Assembly: GCA_021787845.1 (NCBI GenBank)
Contig: JAJYLH010000061.1
Span: forward strand, 1 to 32,040
Direction: 5' to 3'
DNA: 32,040 nucleotides
Origin: Myxococcales bacterium
GTDB taxonomy: Bacteria > Myxococcota > Myxococcia > Myxococcales > JAJYLH01
This document shows positions 2,673-31,833 of this stretch, piece after piece. Both the position numbers and the translations under genes were made by a program. Under the pieces are notes generated by a model. It was not told where the DNA came from and searched no databases. It saw nothing but the letters and a program-made list of their open reading frames with translations. Every line of letters starts with the position of its first letter. Position 1 is the first letter of the stretch.

Positions 2673-5273
2673 TCAGTGCACCATACCCTGAACATGCCAC
2701 TGACTAAGCCTCCGGTAGACATCTGAAAACGGGCGTGTCATGGCGCCATCACTTACGACAGCCAATGCACCCTGGCGGAACCGCTCTTCAACTTCCGGAA
2801 ACGGCTCTTCCTTAGATACCACACCGACATCACGAAGGAAATCAAGTGCTCGTTCCTCAGCCGCGCCCTCCGCAGCCCTAATTCCACCTCCGAAAGCAGT
2901 CTCGTTCCTGCGTTCCCCAGTAAAGTTCAACATTCGGTGAAGCACCCGTTGGAGCGCAACGAGCGAAAGCTTATTAGGAGTGATACTTCCAAACACAAAA
3001 TACCGCTGCGACTCGCTAATCGTCTCATCATCTATCTGCGACTCAAAAAAGGCATTCACAGCATCGCCTAAGCCCATGCAGTCTTCTCCGATCACGCAAC
3101 GTACAAGAACGCAAGCACGAAACGATGTGACTGAACTAAAACGACACGACGAGATCACTGTGTCGTGGACCTGACAGGACTCAAAGTTGACGCTTGACAG
3201 ATCCAAGTTCTTAAGTGTACCCGAATACTCAAACCCACGAGCGATGTACAATCCCCTGCTCATCTCAAGAAAATCAGGGGTCCTAAGTCCATCAGATTTC
3301 CTCACGGGCATAACGTCACACAGGATCCGAAATAGAGAGCCTATCGCACGAGGTGAACATTTTAGTGATGTGCGCCGGCTCCATACAACTTGCGCAACCT
3401 CGCGACTATTATCGAAAGCAGCGAGCGTGTGACCAGCAAGTTCACACACATCCCCAAAATTGTCCGCAAGGCGGAGCAGAAGCGGGCCGATCCGTCTAGT
3501 GATTTGGGAGAGCAACTCATCGCCCTCAGCAATACCCCTAAGCGCTGCCACGACCTCTTCGGACAACAGAGCATCTCTAAGCGTGTCGTTTCGCAGGGAC
3601 AGATGACCATCCTTCAGACTCACGAGTACGTGATGATTCGCAAAACGCTGCGCATCGGCCTCCGACAAACCCTCAACTTGCGCAAGCAGAATGAAGTCCT
3701 CAACCTGACACTCTTCGCCGAACTCAATCAGCGCGCTACAAATTAGCGCCAATTGCGCCTTCCCATCAATCGGGAGGTCATGCCTCTTCTTCTCTCGCTC
3801 GCACATCATGTAAGCAATGCTGGCGAGCGGATTCGCCCTGTTAATACCGTGCGCAAGGGCATCGAAACGACCATCCGAACGACGGTAATCAAGCGCAGCA
3901 TCACAAAGGTACCGAAGCACCAATGGTGTCAGCCACTCGTCGTTGCCGCCGACCTTGCGTATCACCGTTCTAACGCGATCCAACACAGCCGAGGTACTCC
4001 CAAGCCGCTTCGTCAGATACTCATCCCTCTGCGCCACATCAAAAGGAACGAGCGTGAACACGTCGCATTGCTGGCGTAAGTTAGGATCAACAAGTGCCCA
4101 AAAACTTGGTCTAGCACTAAGCATCACCCGAGTCTGACTTCTTTTCAGTCTTGTTAAGCCCAAGATCCTCTCTACCAAGGCATTAGGAGAGGTACTCGAG
4201 CCACGACTACACACTTCATCGAAACTATCAAAGAGCAGCCCAAGGACACCATTCGCCACAAGTGCGTCTAGATGACCAAGGTCGAGGTTTCCAAATCCCT
4301 GCCGCTTAAGCGCAGCCTTCAAAAGATTCTCCGGTGTCATCACGGCCCGTGATTTCTGCACTTCAAGCCAATCTTCGTCTCCAACGAGCAGAACAGACTT
4401 ACCACCTCCGCGGAGGATGCGGGACGCGGCCTCCGCAAGGAGCGTCGTCTTGCCTGCCCCGCCAGTACCCAGGAGGACAGTAAGGCGGCCGGCGGTCTTT
4501 GATGTTACAAACTCTTGGACGACTCTCGTGGCCTCTTCGACGGTCTTGCCCAAAGGATCTTTGAGACGCGGCTCGACAAAAAGATCCTTCTCTCGGCTAA
4601 TTTGTGGAGCTTGACGTCTCACCACGCGCTTCAAAGCAAACGCGCGGAGCTGCGCTTCTAGTAGCCAAGTGCAATCTAGCAACCCATGAAGTGAATTTCG
4701 TAAGCTTGTGTTGTCGACCGGCAGGAGAAGACCAAACGTTCGCGTAATAGTTCGGCCTGACATGCGAATGTTCTTTAAGGCGTCCGCTGCTGAAGCCGCT
4801 ACATCTTTGATGTTGGAAACAGGCTTGTCAGACCCAAGCAAGACAACAACTGCAACCGTAGCGTCATCCTCAACCAATGCCTGCGGCTCAGCCGCCGTCC
4901 AAACCTCCCAGCGGCTCGCGACGAAGTGTTCGCGGATCGGGTTCACGAGACCGTTCATCTCGAGAAGACGCGGGAACAGCGGGAGACCACTCTCTTCGGA
5001 TACATTTTCAACAAGGGGTGGTGCACTGGCTGCGATGCGCTTTTCATTGCGCGACGTCACTGACTCAGGCAGTCGGTCGAAAAGACTGGAGCGGCTGGCC
5101 TCTTCCTCGTACACATGGAGACGCTCCAACGTGACATCGAGGGACTCCATGGGCGGAACATAGGGGACGAATCCCCGGCGCCGAGCGTCAGCATGATTGG
5201 CCGCTTCCCGACGAAGAGCTTCGAGAAGCTGAGCGCGGGTCATCGATTGCAGGCACTTGCGTAACGTTGTCAT
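2673..5273 (-). CDS. NACHT-type STAND NTPase with a duplicated N-terminal domain; candidate anti-phage protein
   Basis: In this 866-residue protein, residues 1-70 form a small charged domain (LLEALRREAANHADA, GFVPYVPP) that is also encoded alone just upstream. Residues 75-240 match nothing I recognise. A NACHT-like P-loop NTPase follows, with Walker A GTGGAGKTT (269-277), Walker B LGLLFDSFDE (344-353, with the extra acidic residues typical of NACHT) and an SARP sensor near 386-389. A long helical part comes next, and residues 684-730 have pentapeptide-like spacing (LKNLDLSSVNFESCQVHD). In STAND proteins the NTPase oligomerises when the C-terminal sensor recognises a trigger and so activates the N-terminal effector; bacterial NACHT and Avs proteins do this against phage. 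No catalytic effector motif is visible in the N-terminal part. The start overlaps the upstream stop by 4 bases (ATGA). Base composition is clearly less GC-rich than in the neighbours, which indicates transfer. Confidence 0.8.
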   Translation of the reverse strand: MTTLRKCLQSMTRAQLLEALRREAANHADARRRGFVPYVPPMESLDVTLERLHVYEEEASRSSLFDRLPESVTSRNEKRIAASAPPLVENVSEESGLPLFPRLLEMNGLVNPIREHFVASRWEVWTAAEPQALVEDDATVAVVVLLGSDKPVSNIKDVAASAADALKNIRMSGRTITRTFGLLLPVDNTSLRNSLHGLLDCTWLLEAQLRAFALKRVVRRQAPQISREKDLFVEPRLKDPLGKTVEEATRVVQEFVTSKTAGRLTVLLGTGGAGKTTLLAEAASRILRGGGKSVLLVGDEDWLEVQKSRAVMTPENLLKAALKRQGFGNLDLGHLDALVANGVLGLLFDSFDEVCSRGSSTSPNALVERILGLTRLKRSQTRVMLSARPSFWALVDPNLRQQCDVFTLVPFDVAQRDEYLTKRLGSTSAVLDRVRTVIRKVGGNDEWLTPLVLRYLCDAALDYRRSDGRFDALAHGINRANPLASIAYMMCEREKKRHDLPIDGKAQLALICSALIEFGEECQVEDFILLAQVEGLSEADAQRFANHHVLVSLKDGHLSLRNDTLRDALLSEEVVAALRGIAEGDELLSQITRRIGPLLLRLADNFGDVCELAGHTLAAFDNSREVAQVVWSRRTSLKCSPRAIGSLFRILCDVMPVRKSDGLRTPDFLEMSRGLYIARGFEYSGTLKNLDLSSVNFESCQVHDTVISSCRFSSVTSFRACVLVRCVIGEDCMGLGDAVNAFFESQIDDETISESQRYFVFGSITPNKLSLVALQRVLHRMLNFTGERRNETAFGGGIRAAEGAAEERALDFLRDVGVVSKEEPFPEVEERFRQGALAVVSDGAMTRPFSDVYRRLSQWHVQGMVH
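5131..5230. repeat. 100-bp direct repeat, copy 1 (inside the NACHT gene)
   Basis: All 100 bases are identical to 6293-6392. Outside this block similarity falls to about 22 of 30 bases on the lower-coordinate side and ends soon after the block on the other. The segment encodes the core of the shared N-terminal domain. Perfect identity, even at synonymous sites, inside otherwise diverged homologues points to recent recombination or gene conversion. Confidence 0.95.
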
Positions 5274-6204: not shown

Positions 6205-6453
6205 TTAGTCTCGGAATGTTGCTCCCTCGAGCAGGGAGTCGAAGGCTCCCGAGCGCTGGGCTTCTTCTTCGTACGCCGGGAGGCGGTCCCTCGTGACATC
6301 GAGGGACTCCATGGGCGGAACATAGGGGACGAATCCCCGGCGCCGAGCGTCAGCATGATTGGCCGCTTCCCGACGAAGAGCTTCGAGAAGCTCGGCGCGG
6401 TTGTCCGCCTGAAGATACTCGCGCAGCGAGCGTGGCTTGTTCGGGTTCCGCAT
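6205..6453 (-). CDS. Small stand-alone copy of the NACHT protein's N-terminal domain
   Basis: This 82-residue, highly charged soluble protein aligns end to end with the first ~70 residues of the NACHT NTPase. Both have LRxxLQ near the start, then an identical run from LLEALRREAANHADA through GFVPYVPP to MESLDVT, then RL..YEEEA.RS..FD. The family is unknown to me. The helical N-terminal half with Arg/Glu repeats and the short Pro-rich stretch suggest a protein-interaction domain. By analogy with STAND systems in which matching adaptor domains pair, it may bind the NTPase as a recruiter, inhibitor or activation partner; this is inference. I chose the second of two adjacent ATGs because AAAGGAG lies five bases before it; the other ATG is at 6456. 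A hairpin masks this ribosome binding site. Confidence 0.65.
   Translation of the reverse strand: MRNPNKPRSLREYLQADNRAELLEALRREAANHADARRRGFVPYVPPMESLDVTRDRLPAYEEEAQRSGAFDSLLEGATFRD
6293..6392. repeat. 100-bp direct repeat, copy 2 (inside the 82-residue gene)
   Basis: This is the second copy of the block at 5131-5230, in the same orientation and 1162 bases away. It is in frame within the small gene as it is in the NACHT gene. Recombination between the copies would delete the 286-residue gene and most of the intervening DNA and would fuse the small gene's start to the NACHT gene body. Confidence 0.95.
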
Positions 6454-14090: not shown

Positions 14091-14141
14091 GCGGGGGCGA
14101 TAGGTGAGGGATGGAAGGGCTCACGCGAAGTGGTGAGACGC

Positions 14142-14176
14142 TGGTGGTCGACCAGGCTGACCAACCTGACCACCAA
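14142..14176. repeat. Iteron-like tandem repeats before the HTH gene
   Basis: GACCAGGCT, GACCAACCT and GACCACCAA lie head to tail at 14150-14176 with a 9-base period, preceded by TGGTGGTC, the inverted form of the last unit. This could be a binding site for the HTH/excisionase-like protein encoded just downstream, or part of a transfer or replication origin. Confidence 0.45.
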
Positions 14177-14218
14177 GGCGATGGCGTAGGCGCCGGGAGC
14201 GAGAAGAAGGAGAGCGCG

Positions 14219-14440
14219 ATGATCGAGCCGACGAACGAGGACGGTCTGTGGACCGCCGACCAGGTGGCGGCGTACCTGCACGCCTCCAGGTCGTGGGTCT
14301 ACCAGCGAGCCGCCAGCGGAGAACTGCCCTGCGTCAAGATTATCGGGCTCTTGCGCTTCGAGCCGGAAACGATTCGGGCGTTCGCCCGCGGCGAGCGCGT
14401 CGCCGGCACGCAGCGGGCGGTGGCGGGGCCGCCGCGGTGA
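14219..14440 (+). CDS. Helix-turn-helix protein, excisionase-like
   Basis: This 73-residue protein matches the MerR-like HTH_17/excisionase pattern: LWTADQVAAYLHASRSWVYQ, then a short wing VKIIGLLRFEPETIRAF. Start chosen because AAGGAG lies six bases upstream. Proteins of this size beside an integrase usually act as recombination directionality factors (Xis) or as regulators of the integrase gene. It lies 90 bases before the integrase, separated by a hairpin, and 42 bases after a set of 9-bp repeats that it might bind. Confidence 0.75.
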   Translation: MIEPTNEDGLWTADQVAAYLHASRSWVYQRAASGELPCVKIIGLLRFEPETIRAFARGERVAGTQRAVAGPPR

Positions 14441-14530: not shown

Positions 14531-15937
14531 ATGGCATCGGTCTATGAGAAACGCGGCGTCTGGTACATCCGGTTCAAGGACGCGCTGGGCCGCTGGACCG
14601 CGGAAGCGTCGAGGGCCAAGACCAAGGGCGAGGCCAAGCACCTGGCCTTCGACCGTGAGAACGACGAGCTGCGCCTGCGCGACGTGCGCCTGACGCTGCC
14701 CCAGCTCGACCCGTCGATGTCGTTCGAGAAGCTCGTGAACTTCTGGTGGAAGGAGTACGGCTCGAGCCTGCGCTCCGTCACCGTCAAGGGCTCGCTCGAG
14801 AAGCACCTGCTCCCCGCGCTGGGCAACCTGACCCTCTCGCAGGTGACCGGCGCGCAGATTGAGGCGGTCCTGAAGTCGAAGGAGGGCGAGCTCGCCCCCG
14901 CGACCTTGAACCGGCTGCGCGGCGTCGTGCTGCGCATCTTCTCGGTCGCGATCCGGCGCGGGCTATGGAACGGCGCCAACCCGGTGCTGATGGTCCCGCC
15001 CTTCAAGGTGCCCAAGCGCCTCCCCGAATATCTGCGCGCCCACGAGGTGCCGCTCCTGCTCGACGCGCTCTTCCCGCCGTGGCGGCCGCTGTTTGCGACC
15101 GCCATCTTCACGGGCCTTCGCCAAGGCGAGCTGCTGGGGCTGCGCAAGACCGACGTGGACCGCGAGACGGGGGCCATCGCGGTGTGCCGCTCCTACGACG
15201 CCGACACCACCAAGGGCGGCCGGGCGGCCTTGGTCCCGATCGCTCCCGAGCTGGCCCCGTTCATCGACGAGGCGATCAAGTCCTCGCCTCCCGACTCCGA
15301 GCTGCTCTTCCCCGCCGCCGACGGCTCGATGCGGGCGCGCGACACGGCGCTCGACAAGGTGCTGCGCCGGGCGCTCGCCCGCGCCGGCCTCGTCCTGTAC
15401 GTCGAGCACCGCTGCCGCGCCCGTGGGTGCGGCCACAAGGAGCGGCACCCGGACGACAAGCTGCGCACCTGCCCGAAGTGCGAGAGCCGTAAGGGGCACC
15501 GCAAGCTCTGGCCGGTACCGGTCCCGAGGCACGTGCGCTTTCACGATTTGCGGCACACGACGGCGACGTTGCTCCTCAAGGCCGGCGTACCGCTCGCGAC
15601 GGTGCAGCGCATCCTGCGCCACTCGAACCCGACGATCACCTCCGAGATCTACGGCCACCTGGACCTGGAGGACCTGCGCCGCGGCGTCGAGAAGCTCTCC
15701 TTCGGCCTGCCGCAGAAGGATTCACCGCCAGTGAAGTCGGACTTCACCACGGAACGTCCCGCCGAGCCGGTTTTGGATCCCGTTTGTTACCCGTTTGCTA
15801 CCCGAGCCGGTTTCGAGGGGGGTACGGGGAGAAACGACACGCCCGAATCTCCAAGAGATTCGGGCGTTTGGGATGGTAGGCCCGATTGGTTTCGAACCAA
15901 CGACCTCTTCCGTGTCAAGGAAGCGCTCTACCACTGA
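14531..15937 (+). CDS. Tyrosine integrase with a zinc-ribbon insertion; 3' end inside tRNA-Val
   Basis: This 468-residue phage/ICE-type tyrosine recombinase has an N-terminal SAM-like DNA-binding domain at about 60-145. The catalytic residues are R197 (TGLRQGELLGL), H338-R341 (HDLRHT), H364 (LRHSN) and the nucleophile Y374 (IYGHL). Between the first Arg and HxxR there is a Cys/His cluster, CRARGCGHKE...CPKC (295-317), predicted to bind zinc. After the catalytic domain a 90-residue tail continues. Its last 21 codons are antisense to the tRNA-Val gene, and the stop lies inside that tRNA. The tail therefore depends on the attachment site, as described for the Mx8 integrase of Myxococcus. Start: ATG 14531, preceded by AGGGG. 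Confidence 0.92.
   Translation: MASVYEKRGVWYIRFKDALGRWTAEASRAKTKGEAKHLAFDRENDELRLRDVRLTLPQLDPSMSFEKLVNFWWKEYGSSLRSVTVKGSLEKHLLPALGNLTLSQVTGAQIEAVLKSKEGELAPATLNRLRGVVLRIFSVAIRRGLWNGANPVLMVPPFKVPKRLPEYLRAHEVPLLLDALFPPWRPLFATAIFTGLRQGELLGLRKTDVDRETGAIAVCRSYDADTTKGGRAALVPIAPELAPFIDEAIKSSPPDSELLFPAADGSMRARDTALDKVLRRALARAGLVLYVEHRCRARGCGHKERHPDDKLRTCPKCESRKGHRKLWPVPVPRHVRFHDLRHTTATLLLKAGVPLATVQRILRHSNPTITSEIYGHLDLEDLRRGVEKLSFGLPQKDSPPVKSDFTTERPAEPVLDPVCYPFATRAGFEGGTGRNDTPESPRDSGVWDGRPDWFRTNDLFRVKEALYH
15780..15801. repeat. Tandem 11-bp repeats near the attachment site
   Basis: CCGTTTGTTAC and CCGTTTGCTAC follow each other directly and differ in one base. They lie inside the integrase 3' end, about 75-95 bases from the tRNA, where arm-type integrase or Xis sites are expected. 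Confidence 0.4.
15840..15866 (-). terminator. Hairpin terminator downstream of tRNA-Val
   Basis: CGCCCGAATCT (15840-15850) and AGATTCGGGCG (15856-15866) form a perfect 11-bp stem with a 5-nt loop. It lies 8 bases beyond the tRNA 3' end on the minus strand, with TGTCGTTTCTC following. It sits on the element side of the junction and inside the integrase reading frame, so the element appears to supply a terminator for the tRNA. Confidence 0.65.
15874..15937. other. Putative attachment site (att junction)
   Basis: The 3' part of tRNA-Val is shared with the end of the integrase gene. Elements that insert in tRNA genes usually recombine in the anticodon-loop to 3' end segment and keep the tRNA functional by bringing an identical 3' end. 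The exact crossover cannot be seen because the other junction is outside the window. Confidence 0.6.
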
Positions 15938-15948
15938 GCTACGGGCCT
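15874..15948 (-). tRNA. tRNA-Val (anticodon GAC)
   Basis: The 75-nt cloverleaf reads in full. The acceptor stem AGGCCCG pairs with CGGGCCT, the D stem is GCTC/GAGC, the anticodon stem is CTTCC/GGAAG with loop TTGACAC (anticodon GAC at 15916-15914), the T stem is GTTGG/CCAAT with loop TTCGAAA, the discriminator base is A and the CCA is encoded. Its 3' half overlaps the integrase coding sequence on the opposite strand and is the probable integration site. Confidence 0.97.
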
Positions 15949-15994
15949 GCGTCGGTTGTGCGGACGCCTCGCTTGCCGGCCGTCCGCGGGGCGC

Positions 15995-16024
15995 CTTCTA
16001 GGCAGCGGGTGCGCTGGCTGTCAA
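15995..16024 (-). promoter_or_regulatory. Promoter of tRNA-Val
   Basis: On the minus strand TTGACA (16024-16019), an 18-base spacer and TAGAAG (16000-15995) lie about 47 bases before the tRNA 5' end. The -35 is perfect and the -10 matches four of six bases. Confidence 0.55.
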
Positions 16025-16139
16025 GCGCAAGTTCCGGCCGGCGCGTCGGCGTTGCGCGAAGCGCGCGTTTCGCCTAAGCACGCTCGTTCTTTTCCGCGCC
16101 CGACCGTTGGTGGAGGTCCGGCGCCCGTGGGAGAAACGC

Positions 16140-18143
16140 ATGAGCGAGACGGTTTCGGTCACCCTGCCCGACGGCTCTTCGAAAGCGGTGCCGAGAGGCA
16201 CGAGCATCGCGGAGTTCGTGCGCACCCAGATCGGCCCCGGGCTCGCCAAGGCGGCGCTCTTCGCCCAGCTCGACGGCGACCCGCTCGACCTCGCCCGCCC
16301 GATCGAGCGCGACGCGAAGCTGACGGTCTTCACCGCGAAGTCTCCAGAAGGGCTCCAGCTCCTCCGGCACGACGCGGCGCACGTCGTCGCCAGCGTCGTC
16401 CAGCGCCTCTTCCCCGGTACGCAGGTCACCATCGGTCCTGCTGTGGAGGAGGGCTTCTACTATGACTTCTACCGCGAGCAACCCTTCACGCCAGAAGACC
16501 TGGAGAAGATCGAAGCGGCGGCGAACGAGGAGGTGAAGAAGAACCAACCCTTCGTGCGCGAGGAGGTGTCGCTCGACGACGCGCTCGCCCTCTTCGGGGG
16601 GATGGGCGAGAAGTTCAAGCTGGAAATCATCCACGACATCGCCGCCAAGGGCGCGAAGACCCTGACGCTCTACCGCCACGGCGACTGGGTCGACTTCTGC
16701 CTGGGTCCCCACGCGCCCTCGACCGGCCACATCGGGGTCATCAAGATTCTGCACGTCGCGGGCGCCTACTGGCGGGGCGACTCGAACCGCGAGCAGCTCC
16801 AGCGCATCTACGGCATCTCCTTCCCCGACAAGAAGCAGCTCGCCGAGTACCTCTTGCGCATCGAGGAGGCGAAGAAGCGCGACCACCGCAAGCTCGGCCG
16901 CGAGCTGGGGCTCTTCACCTTCCTCCCCGTGTCCCCCGGCAGCGCTTTCTGGCTCCCGAAGGGCTCCACCCTCTTTCACACGCTCGCCGAGGCGATGCGT
17001 CGGCTCCTTCTCGACGAGGCCGGCTACGTCGAGATCCGCACGCCCTTGATTTATAACAAATCGCTCTGGGAGCAGAGCGGCCACTGGGGCAAGTACAAGG
17101 AGAACCTCTTCCTCATCCTGAACAAGGAGGTCCTCGAAGAAGGGTGGGACGACGAGCCGACTGAGGGGCAGGAGCCCAAGCAAGTGCCGGTACCGGCGCT
17201 GGACTCATCGCTGAAGCCGATGAACTGCCCGTCGCACCACCTGGTCTACGGTCTGGAGCGGCGCAGCTACCGAGAGCTACCGCTTCGGCTCCACACGCAG
17301 GACGCGCTGCACCGCAACGAAGTCTCGGGCAGCTTGGGCGGCTTGACCCGGGTGCGCCAGTTCCATCAGGACGACGCGCACATCTACCTGATGGAGGAGC
17401 AGATCTTCGACGAGGTTTCCCGGCTGTTCTCGCTGATCGATCGGATCTACTCCGGCCTCGGGCTGACCTACGAGGCGAAGTTCTCGACCCGGCCGGAGAA
17501 CTTCCTCGGCTCCATCGAGCGGTGGGATCGCGCCGAGGCGATGCTGGAGAGGGCGCTGAAGAACCTCGGCCGGCCGTACACGCTCAAGGAGAAGGACGGC
17601 GCGTTCTACGGACCGAAAATCGACTTCGACGTGACCGACGCGCTCGGTCGCAAGTGGCAGCTCGCGACGATTCAGCTCGACTACCTGGCGCCGGAGCGGT
17701 TCGACCTGAAGTACGTCGGCGCCGACAACCACGAGCACCAGCCGGTGGTCATCCACCGCGCCATCTACGGGTCGTTCGAGCGGTTCATCGCCATTCTCAT
17801 CGAGCACTTCGCGGGGGCGTTCCCGACGTGGCTCGCGCCGGTGCAGGCGCGGGTGGTCACGGTGAGCGAGCACCAGCTCGAGTACGCCCGGCAGGTGCGG
17901 GACGCGCTCAAGAAGGAGGGCTTCCGCGTCGAGCTGGACGAGTCGACGGCGGAGAAGATCGGCGCGCGCATCCGCCTCGCGGAGCTGGCGAAGGTGCCGT
18001 ACGCGCTGGTCATCGGCGACAAGGAGGTCGAGGCGAACGCGGTCAGCCCCCGCGGCCGCGGCGGGCGCGACCTGAAGGAGATGCCGCTTTCGCAGTTCAT
18101 CGCGCTCTTGCGCGAGGAAGCGAAGGTGCCCTGGTTGGCGTAG
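16140..18143 (+). CDS. thrS: Threonyl-tRNA synthetase
   Basis: This class II synthetase of 667 residues charges tRNA-Thr with threonine in the cytoplasm. An N-terminal TGS domain (1-65) is followed by the editing domain with HDAAH (77-81) and DFCLGPH (C187, H191). The catalytic core has the zinc Cys in MNCPSH (C363), motif 2 [25 protein letters not shown] (second zinc ligand H414) and VVIHRA (third zinc ligand), then the anticodon-binding domain ([14 protein letters not shown]). It is some 25 residues longer than the E. coli enzyme, mostly through an acidic insertion before MNCPSH (about 325-358). Start: ATG with GGGAG seven bases upstream. It is the first core gene beside the tRNA and is transcribed away from it. 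Confidence 0.97.
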
Positions 18144-18185: not shown

Positions 18186-18253
18186 GACCGTCGCCTGATC
18201 CGACCGTCGCCTGATCCGACCGATCGGACCGATCCGACCGATCGGTCCGATCG
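18186..18253. repeat. CCGATCGG palindromic repeat, copy 1, with tandem 16-bp units
   Basis: Two direct copies of GACCGTCGCCTGATCC (18186-18201, 18202-18217) lead into a palindrome in which CGATCGGACCGATC (18221-18234) pairs with GATCGGTCCGATCG (18240-18253) around 5 bases. It lies between the convergent ends of thrS and the phosphoesterase gene and may terminate both. Three related copies lie within 8 kb. Confidence 0.9.
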
Positions 18254-18265
18254 TCGCGCGCGGCA

Positions 18266-19030
18266 TCACACCTCGACCACCGCGTAGCTCTGCGGCGGGT
18301 CCATCCGGCGCAAGAGCGGCAGCGCGCAGTTGTAGACCGGCACGTCGCGGTTGGTGCGGTCGAAGTAGGTGCCCCGATGCGCGTGGCCGTGGAAGACGGC
18401 GTGCGCGTGGTAGCGGTTGATCGGCTCCTGCAGTCGGCTCGTTCCGAGGAAGGCGTGAATCTCCGCGGGCTCTCCGAGAACGGTGCCGCGCAGCGGCGAG
18501 TAGTGGAGCACCGCCACCCGCCGCTCGGTCCTCAGCTTCGCGAGCGCGGTTTCCAGCTTCAGCGCCTCGTCCAGCGCCGCCGCCACGAACGCCTTGATCG
18601 TCTCCTCGCCCCAAGCCTGGAGCAGATGCTCTCCGAAACCGCCGGCGAACCCCTTGGTCCCGGCGAAGCCCAAGCCCTCGTCCAGGGTGAAGCTCTCCCC
18701 GTCGAGCACATGCATGCCCGCCTGGCGGAGGATCTGCCGCACCTCGCGCCCGTGGCCCGTCTCGTGGTCGTGGTTTCCCAAGACGCCCACCATCGGTACC
18801 CGCACGCCCGACAGCTCGTTCGCCAGCACCTCCGCCTCCTGTGGCGTGCCCCGGTCGGTCAGGTCGCCGCAGAGCAGCAGCACTTCAGCTTGCCGTTCGA
18901 CCTCGGCGAACCAGGGCCGGACCGCGCCGCGCATCTCCTCGGTGCAGTGGAGGTCGCCGACCGCCGCGAGGCGCCGCGCCGGTCCCGCCGGCGGAGGCGG
19001 TCGAGGACCATGGTCGGGCCCGCCGGCCAT
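18266..19030 (-). CDS. Calcineurin-like metallophosphoesterase
   Basis: This 254-residue protein has all the metal-binding blocks of the family: GDLHC (25-29), GDLTDRG (55-61), GNHDHE (85-90), HYSP (176-179) and GHAH (215-218). The substrate cannot be told from the sequence; relatives hydrolyse phosphodiesters such as cyclic nucleotides or dephosphorylate proteins. There is no signal peptide, so it is probably cytoplasmic. A Pro-rich 20-residue extension precedes the domain, and a later start is possible because no clear ribosome binding site is seen. It follows the nucleotidyltransferase gene with a 9-base gap, in one operon. Confidence 0.85.
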   Translation of the reverse strand: MAGGPDHGPRPPPPAGPARRLAAVGDLHCTEEMRGAVRPWFAEVERQAEVLLLCGDLTDRGTPQEAEVLANELSGVRVPMVGVLGNHDHETGHGREVRQILRQAGMHVLDGESFTLDEGLGFAGTKGFAGGFGEHLLQAWGEETIKAFVAAALDEALKLETALAKLRTERRVAVLHYSPLRGTVLGEPAEIHAFLGTSRLQEPINRYHAHAVFHGHAHRGTYFDRTNRDVPVYNCALPLLRRMDPPQSYAVVEV

Positions 19031-20335: not shown

Positions 20336-20366
20336 CGGCGAGCGAGGCACGGAAGCTGCCGCTTCC

Positions 20367-20406
20367 GAACAGACCGATCGGTCGGATCGGTCCGATCGGT
20401 CTGTTC
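20367..20406 (-). repeat. CCGATCGG palindromic repeat, copy 2
   Basis: GAACAGACCGATCGG (20367-20381) pairs perfectly with CCGATCGGTCTGTTC (20392-20406) around a 10-nt loop. It lies 26 bases past the stop of the minus-strand oxidoreductase gene, the position of a terminator, though no T run follows. Confidence 0.9.
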
Positions 20407-20432
20407 GGTCCGATCGCCCGCCGGCACGACGC

Positions 20433-21680: not shown

Positions 21681-21857
21681 CGGTGAGCTCCTCGCCCTCG
21701 CGTCCGCCGCCGAGCGCGGCGCTTTGCTCTAGCAGCGAGCATCAGGTTCCGGCAACCGCGCTCGATGCTGGTCCGGGAGGCGTTCGCGACTCGCACGCCG
21801 GTGCGCTCCCGGGTTGAGGAGAGAGCTCTTCGGTCGCGCGACGGGACCGATCCGACT

Positions 21858-21879
21858 GATCCGACCGATCGGTCGGATC
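21858..21879. repeat. CCGATCGG palindromic repeat, copy 3
   Basis: GATCCGACCGATCGGTCGGATC is split evenly as a perfect palindrome of 22 bp. It lies between the divergent starts of the oxidoreductase and DUF2795 genes, so this copy cannot be a simple terminator. Confidence 0.9.
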
Positions 21880-21976
21880 CGCGGCAGCGAGGGAAGCGTC
21901 TGCGCTCGGGTCCTGGAAGGGGGCGCGCGTGAACCGAACAGGCCCGGACACTACCTTTCTCGCAGACGGAGGATGC

Positions 21977-25982: not shown

Positions 25983-26062
25983 GTGAGGCGCTCGAGCGGG
26001 GCGAAAGAGCTGCCCGTTGGGCCCATGCTAGACCGTTCCCCGTGCGCCTCTCGCCCGGACGT

Positions 26063-26088
26063 CCGATCCGACCGATCGGTCGGATCGG
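26063..26088. repeat. CCGATCGG palindromic repeat, copy 4
   Basis: The 26 bases from CCGATCCGACCG to its mirror half CGGTCGGATCGG form a perfect palindrome. It lies between the divergent starts of the glycosyltransferase and DUF47 genes. The core is the same as in copies 1-3. Confidence 0.9.
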
Positions 26089-26193
26089 TCCGATCGGACA
26101 TCGCCCCCCGCGGCCCGAAGAGCCGGGGCCGGCGCCTTGTGCTAGAAGCCTCGCGCCGCCGTGGATCCGGCGCATTCCAAGGAGGGAGCGAGG

Positions 26194-31609: not shown

Positions 31610-31833
31610 GGCTCTCCGACAGAATCTATGCGTGTTGCGGACGAGACGAGGAAGCCGGACACGTGAGTGTCCGGGTGCAGGCACGGCGTTCACCGATCGC
31701 CAGAACTGCACCTCGATATCTTCCGTCAGGCGGCAAGACGGTTAGAGAGCGGTGAACGGCACTGCCCAACCCGACACTCACGTGTCCGGCTCCAAGAGCG
31801 GCGCTTTCCACGCACAGATTCTGTTGGGGAGCC
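31610..31833. repeat. Large imperfect inverted repeat (~85-bp arms)
   Basis: Arms 31610-31695 and 31750-31833 are reverse complements in three blocks. GGCTCTCCGACAGAATCT and following bases (31610-31634) match the opposite arm in 22 of 25 positions. AGCCGGACACGTGAGTGTC (31653-31671) matches perfectly, and CGTTCACCG closes the inner end. About 18 bases between the first two blocks do not match. The 54-base centre has a small hairpin of its own. It may be a miniature transposable element or a structured RNA. Confidence 0.8.

Follow-up and report, generated by a model that had tools for sequence, protein, structure and literature searches.

A putative bipartite integrase gene in Myxococcota whose reading frame appears to be cut at a tRNA core by integration

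Background

Which protein does an integrative element encode while it is a free circle, and which one does it encode after integration, when the gene of its integrase ends inside the very tRNA gene that serves as its target? The question is raised by int, a tyrosine integrase gene located in a stretch of 32,040 nucleotides (hereafter the window) that makes up the entire contig C38 of a 153-contig assembly of a bacterium of the Myxococcales. Here we conducted a comparative analysis of this gene, of the two junctions of its element and of its relatives in the phylum Myxococcota, and we argue that the answer probably involves a second domain of the integrase, encoded beyond the attachment site.

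Results

The int gene and its tRNA target

The reading frame of int opens with an ATG and closes with a TGA (Table 1), and its product matches the Pfam family Phage_integrase (PF00589, 1.9e-21). Residues R197, H338, R341, H364 and Y374, which we take to be the catalytic residues, are invariant across 11 relatives, and all the catalytic columns lie upstream of the core, that is, of the tRNA half shared by both ends of the element. Reading-frame and ARAGORN predictions agreed with the earlier note on this DNA, which had claimed that the final 64 bases of int, including the stop, are antisense to tRNA-Val; no other full copy of this tRNA-Val(GAC) was found in the assembly. Coincidence at a single locus does not account for the overlap, because an antisense tRNA is present near the 3' end of int in 48 of the 67 int regions that we surveyed. 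The stop of int falls within the tRNA in 31 of those 48 regions, and 15 of these 31 genes share a TGA ending 11 nt from the 5' end of the tRNA.

Table 1. Coordinates of the features at the integrase end of the element (positions in the window)
Feature	Position	Strand	Evidence and remarks
int, tyrosine integrase	14531..15937	+	ORF and Pfam; 468 aa when integrated; Int-HTH read through the rebuilt attP, 588 aa
tRNA-Val(GAC), integration target	15874..15948	-	ARAGORN; restored intact at the window junction
int stop codon, integrated form	15935..15937	+	lies outside the core, in the chromosomal 5' half of the tRNA
Core, 47 nt	15874..15920	.	identical to C83:75605-75651, the displaced tRNA 3' half
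Tandem 11-bp repeat GTTTGYTACCC, putative arm-type site	15782..15803	+	in the int tail; matches the GTTTGCTACCC repeats on C83
Hairpin 3' of the tRNA, likely terminator	15839..15867	-	within the int frame; fold -23.5 kcal/mol, z -5.9
Separate HTH_17 gene directly upstream of int	14111..14440	+	Pfam 2.7e-8; likely excision factor (Xis/Uoi-like)

Several other features of the window were recorded as observations in their own right. The neighbourhood of tRNA-Val and thrS (15948-18143) is also found in several relatives, mostly on opposite query strands, so that the relative orientation there is unlike that of the window. Outside the element, palindromic GATCCGACCGATCGGTCGGATC-like repeats of one family, with a periodicity of 9 bp, occur at four places (18197-18270, 20351-20415, 21824-21897 and 26040-26104). 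The frame at 1139-2176 encodes a sigma-54 activator that matches the PADLOC profile RtcR_PspF2, of CARF-AAA-HTH architecture (4.1e-105), and its CARF part is missing because the match starts at profile position 159. A NACHT/STAND-like ATPase reading frame occupies 2673-5273, two copies of a 203-nt direct repeat (5064-5266 and 6226-6428) are 82% identical and 1162 bp apart, and a 25-nt inverted repeat (31653-31677 and 31767-31791) is 92% complementary with 89 nt between its arms.

The second junction and the rebuilt attP

A repeat search of the window alone did not turn up another copy of the tRNA end, the partner being on another contig. The second junction, which the earlier note had placed in a flanking contig, was located by searching the assembly with the junction of the window, whose only other strong match was on contig C83. 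There we found the exact 47-nt 3' half of the tRNA, from the CCA end to the anticodon loop, without the 5' half, the assembly holding one full and one half copy of tRNA-Val. To the left of this core the sequence of C83 differs from that of the window, and to its right the arm-type repeats listed in Table 1 are followed by a reading frame with a helix-turn-helix (HTH) domain. Joining the left side of C83, the core and the right side of the window produces an intact tRNA-Val according to ARAGORN, and therefore the attP consists of the left side of the window, the core and the right side of C83. This attP lies inside int rather than outside it, and the 3' half of the tRNA is the shared core, so that both observations agree with the earlier note.

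Across the rebuilt attP the frame of int meets no stop at the core and continues for 125 more residues, with the HTH at the end. Integration exchanges these last 125 residues for five (EALYH) and a stop taken from the antisense tRNA, and the proposal that the C-terminus of the protein would be set by the attachment site is thus well supported by the two reconstructed forms. The earlier note lacked the point on which the present work centres, namely that the 125-residue tail holds a conserved excisionase-type HTH and that this layout recurs in relatives. The HTH frame at the far end scores 42.8 bits against the excisionase family TIGR01764 (cut-off 28.8) and matches HTH_17 with 5e-13. The idea that this far-end HTH promotes excision is argued against by its being cut off from int in the integrated state.

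Two features of a genomic island with a tRNA-targeting tyrosine integrase are present, an integrase beside an intact tRNA and a displaced fragment of this tRNA at the far end of the element. C83 and C38 are unjoined in the assembly and their ends show no overlap, so that the island is not closed. It may moreover be composite, because C83 also carries a second, different tyrosine integrase 3 kb inside, together with an IS1595-type transposase and AbiEi. Within the island part of C83, the locus recorded as L009 (10467-15427) comprises the AbiEi-like protein (PADLOC 2.1e-53), a phosphorylase-family protein, the second integrase and the transposase. An empty-site search gave, for two other elements, matches in other species that start at the tRNA terminator and reach the far flank, the left flank being unshared.

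The reading frame of int among relatives in Myxococcota

Relatives of int (E <= 1e-40) occur in 69 of the 195 genomes of the phylum, and the stretches around 66 matches, which are a part of all matches, were analysed together with the window as 67 regions. The far-end HTH was searched for with a profile of our own in all three frames, matches with E < 1e-12 being regarded as strong. A strong far-end HTH, either with a copy of the core or contiguous with int, was identified in 31 of the 67 regions; in three of them (G037_C6, G051_C199 and G046_C124) int, core and HTH stand on one contig stretch, which leaves 28 split, two-ended elements, the window included. Left out of the counts were a second arm-repeat match, of 22 nt, in G106, a second HTH without core in G105, and three HTH matches with E above 1e-12 (G114, 1.5e-8; G048, 1.1e-9; G105b, 1.8e-4). 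The 36 regions without a strong far HTH include many that are cut by contig ends or by the limits of the 20-kb stretch. No far HTH was found in five other regions with a far core of 29-51 nt (G107, G048, G051_C266, G078 and G011), and the int frame stops before attP in G107 and G048; the other regions had no far core in the DNA examined, many because their contigs end.

The HTH is in the frame of int in 26 of the 28 split elements. Two elements depart from this: in G097 the linker leads into the HTH in the right frame, with an indel thereafter, and in G143 int is truncated, with a shift of frame ahead of the core. The stretch from core to HTH is free of stops in the int frame in 25 of the 28 elements, compared with 10 and 8 in the other two frames, and in 24 elements the HTH is in frame and the stretch is also open. 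A stop separates core and HTH in G088 and G086, and G084, counted here as in frame, has an early stop in the matched int segment. Of the contiguous cases, only G037_C6 keeps the frame; in G051_C199 and G046_C124 the HTH is out of frame. Targets vary between elements (15 isoacceptors in the 48 regions that have an antisense tRNA), and, depending on the element, int crosses the 3' end of the tRNA in any of the three phases. A tRNA was called in 25 of the split elements, and in 23 of these the phase of the HTH compensates for that of the tRNA (shuffle mean 10.0), a number reached by none of 200,000 shuffles. Common descent alone does not explain this sharing of the frame well, because linker lengths and tRNA phases vary; when the 28 elements are grouped at 80% int identity, 17 of the 18 resulting clusters are wholly in frame (binomial 9.6e-8). 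G000, the genome of the window itself, holds further integrases of the family, beside antisense tRNA-Arg(TCG) on contig C92, tRNA-Arg(CCG) on C56 and tRNA-Gly(CCC) on C153, the latter two belonging to two-ended elements with an in-frame HTH; a broken integrase of the same family is found on C99.

These counts bear on the alternative that survives best, namely that the HTH belongs to an ordinary, separate xis gene located by attP and translated from a start of its own whether the element is free or integrated, the common frame being a result of GC-rich DNA or of descent. Excisionase-type HTHs are usually separate genes, and those matched in phages are annotated as separate excise/HTH genes; in most elements there are in-frame ATG, GTG or TTG codons near the HTH, and the two contiguous junctions that are out of frame also fit a gene of its own. 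The preservation of the frame despite varying linker lengths, the compensation over three tRNA phases and the much rarer openness of the other two frames speak against it, as does phage Mx9, which has an unsplit Int-HTH protein. Moreover, no Shine-Dalgarno (SD) sequence supports the candidate starts near the HTH, whose match to the SD hexamer is at most 4 of 6 (mostly 5 for int starts); in G000_C153 and G008 the 25 codons that precede the HTH contain no start codon, and for the window element the sole start codon of the examined stretch falls within the HTH itself. The data on starts favour translation as a fusion, with internal starts elsewhere as a possibility, and we regard a separate gene as unlikely.

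Contiguous fusions, tandem arrays and viral relatives

Two contigs of G037 contain the fusion as one uninterrupted frame. On C6 an Int-HTH frame of 544 aa crosses the 3' half of tRNA-Gly, and on C52 an in-frame Int-HTH crosses that of tRNA-Asp, the latter joining the Int of one element with the HTH of the next one in a tandem pair. Neither contig is claimed as a circle, overlap of the contig ends being absent. At the tRNA-Asp site of this genome, C52 and C61 start with the same sequence, which is also found at the end of C128 after the int tail, and these contigs show either tandem elements or two coexisting states. As a separate observation, the loci L240 (C52), L246 (C61) and L249 (C128) present one int tail followed by either the HTH or the tRNA.

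The scan for close relatives gave one locus among genome contigs, in a MAG of Myxococcaceae, and none among viral contigs. This locus, the nearest relatives listed, which belong to the same order, and the matches to phages of M. xanthus together point to a myxobacterial host. An alignment-based viral scan, from which 80 loci were kept, had as closest relative L160, whose Int of 398 aa has no HTH tail, and the seven HTH matches in these 80 loci are short separate frames outside the int frame. Nothing was found in a viral scan with the Int of Mx9, and matches of int to plasmids are distant.

Selective constraints on the HTH

To compare constraints along the protein we used pN/pS, obtained for ten pairs by simple counting without correction. 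Values for the HTH were between 0 and 0.28 in nine of the ten pairs and 0.41 in the remaining one, those for the catalytic part were 0.04-0.25 in nine pairs and 0.55 in one, and the ranges were 0.28-1.38 for the linker and 0.20-1.94 for the tail. Because its pN/pS is low and similar to that of the catalytic part, the HTH looks like a working protein domain under purifying selection; linker and tail look loose and weakly constrained.

A second alternative accepts the fusion as real and holds that the tail has no effect on recombination, the change of C-terminus being harmless. The weak constraint on linker and tail would agree with this, as would the tail-less Int of the viral relative L160 and the catalytic part, which is complete in both forms. 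Purifying selection on the HTH and the keeping of the frame up to it point in the other direction, and in the account of a review the integrated form of the Mx8 integrase has altered specificity (PMC6070905). A tail without effect is in our view improbable.

Arm repeats and the pairing of the two contigs

Arm repeats of the int tail and of the linker share a longest stretch with a median of 14 nt within elements and 8 nt between elements. For the window int tail the C83 linker is the best of the 28 (14 nt, as against at most 11 nt in the 27 others), and because of this best match C83 and the window are tied to one element. That the C83 junction comes from another element in a tandem at the tRNA, its HTH not being the partner of the window int, is the least probable of the alternatives and quite unlikely: it would accord with the gap between C83 and C38, the second integrase and the occurrence of tandem elements in G037, and it is opposed by the single full and single half tRNA copies in the assembly, by the arm repeats and by the fit of frame and phase.

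Discussion

Proposed mechanism

Taking together the two junctions, the in-frame fusion here and in relatives, the selection on the HTH and the arm repeats on both sides of the core, all of them read from sequence, we think it likely that int is a bipartite integrase gene, expressed as Int-HTH from the free circle and cut at the core by integration, which would remove the HTH. On the circle, int would encode a protein in which Int is followed, at the C-terminus, by an excisionase-type HTH, and the attP (arm repeats, the tRNA 3' half as core, arm repeats) would sit in the linker between the two. After integration Int would keep its N-terminal and catalytic parts and would end in a few residues and a stop supplied by the 5' half of the antisense tRNA; the HTH segment would be left at the far end, behind chromosomal DNA, without the promoter and start of int. 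Because an arriving circle can make only Int-HTH, the fusion should be competent for integration, and Int without the HTH would presumably recombine differently, either less or with other partners.

The likelier excision factor is the separate HTH gene that precedes int, and its product would assist excision. This gene remains linked to int in both states and has relatives in 22 of the 27 other elements, its TIGR01764 score being below the cut-off.

A more far-reaching version of the bipartite gene is that it acts as a sensor of state, Int-HTH being made from the free circle only, so that integration would switch an establishing form into a form for maintenance or excision; the switch would persist over many tRNA targets through a single frame shared by Int, the antisense tRNA piece and the HTH. 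We put this forward tentatively, as a possibility slightly short of even chances. In this sensor reading the system would be a bacterial, non-lethal counterpart of the archaeal suicidal integrases, and in tandem arrays the Int of one element would be fused with the HTH of the adjacent one, a situation suggested by the C52 junction of G037.

The failure of elements to re-excise after integration is usually explained by the transcription of int and xis. In the mechanism proposed here the recombination event would edit the enzyme itself, and if the HTH tail alters activity, the direction of recombination would be set in part by protein architecture. A practical rule would also follow, that in these genomes the int genes of integrated elements carry tRNA-derived ends unlike those of the free form.

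Comparison with known systems

The two ends exchanged in IntP of phage Mx8 reportedly measure 112 and 13 residues. The earlier note had taken Mx8 of Myxococcus as its model, and part of that comparison stands: in Mx8 the attP also lies within int and integration supplies a new 3' end, which according to the account in a review leaves Int active with altered specificity (PMC6070905), and the int studied here would likewise have its attP in frame and its C-terminus changed by integration. The protein of Mx8, however, is distantly related to the window Int and its tail has no HTH match in a Pfam scan, for which reason we rejected Mx8 as a direct homologue. Judged by sequence layout, Mx9 is a closer parallel than Mx8, because its Int ends in an HTH and the Mx8 tail shows none. 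The Mx9 Int (AY247757, 548 aa) is a tyrosine integrase whose C-terminal domain matches TIGR01764/HTH_17, and the linker between its catalytic part and the HTH includes 44 nt antisense to tRNA-Gly(CCC), the same layout as in the window Int-HTH. It differs in being about 31% identical to the window int and in that the shared piece of tRNA is the 5' half and not the 3' half; the review, as far as its account goes, ascribes to Mx9 the same principle of integration as to Mx8 (PMC6070905).

In the archaeal suicidal integrases of SSV type the recombination site is inside the gene, which is divided on integration, and according to a review recombinases that disrupt their own gene occur in archaea only (PMC8371274). 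There the split inactivates the enzyme, whereas here the catalytic part stays whole, not being separated by integration, and the HTH alone is removed; the archaeal domain PF16795 (Phage_integr_3) had no match in the Pfam scan of the window. If the mechanism proposed is true, it would place a bacterial case beside the archaeal ones. Mycobacteriophage BPs, as described in part of one paper (PMC4557955), also has its attP inside a reading frame whose C-terminus is trimmed by integration, with a difference in behaviour, as would be the case for the window int, but the gene is there the repressor and the part lost carries a degradation tag in place of a DNA-binding domain.

Integrases reaching across attP are already known, those of Mx8 and SSV being named in the relevant part of the Islander paper (PMC4383910), and Mx8 and Mx9 are precedents. 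In the literature searched, most subscription papers being outside its scope, we found no description of an Int-HTH gene split by integration. What appears to be new is that the part removed is an excisionase-type domain, that the arrangement is spread over many tRNA targets, and that the frame is compensated across them.
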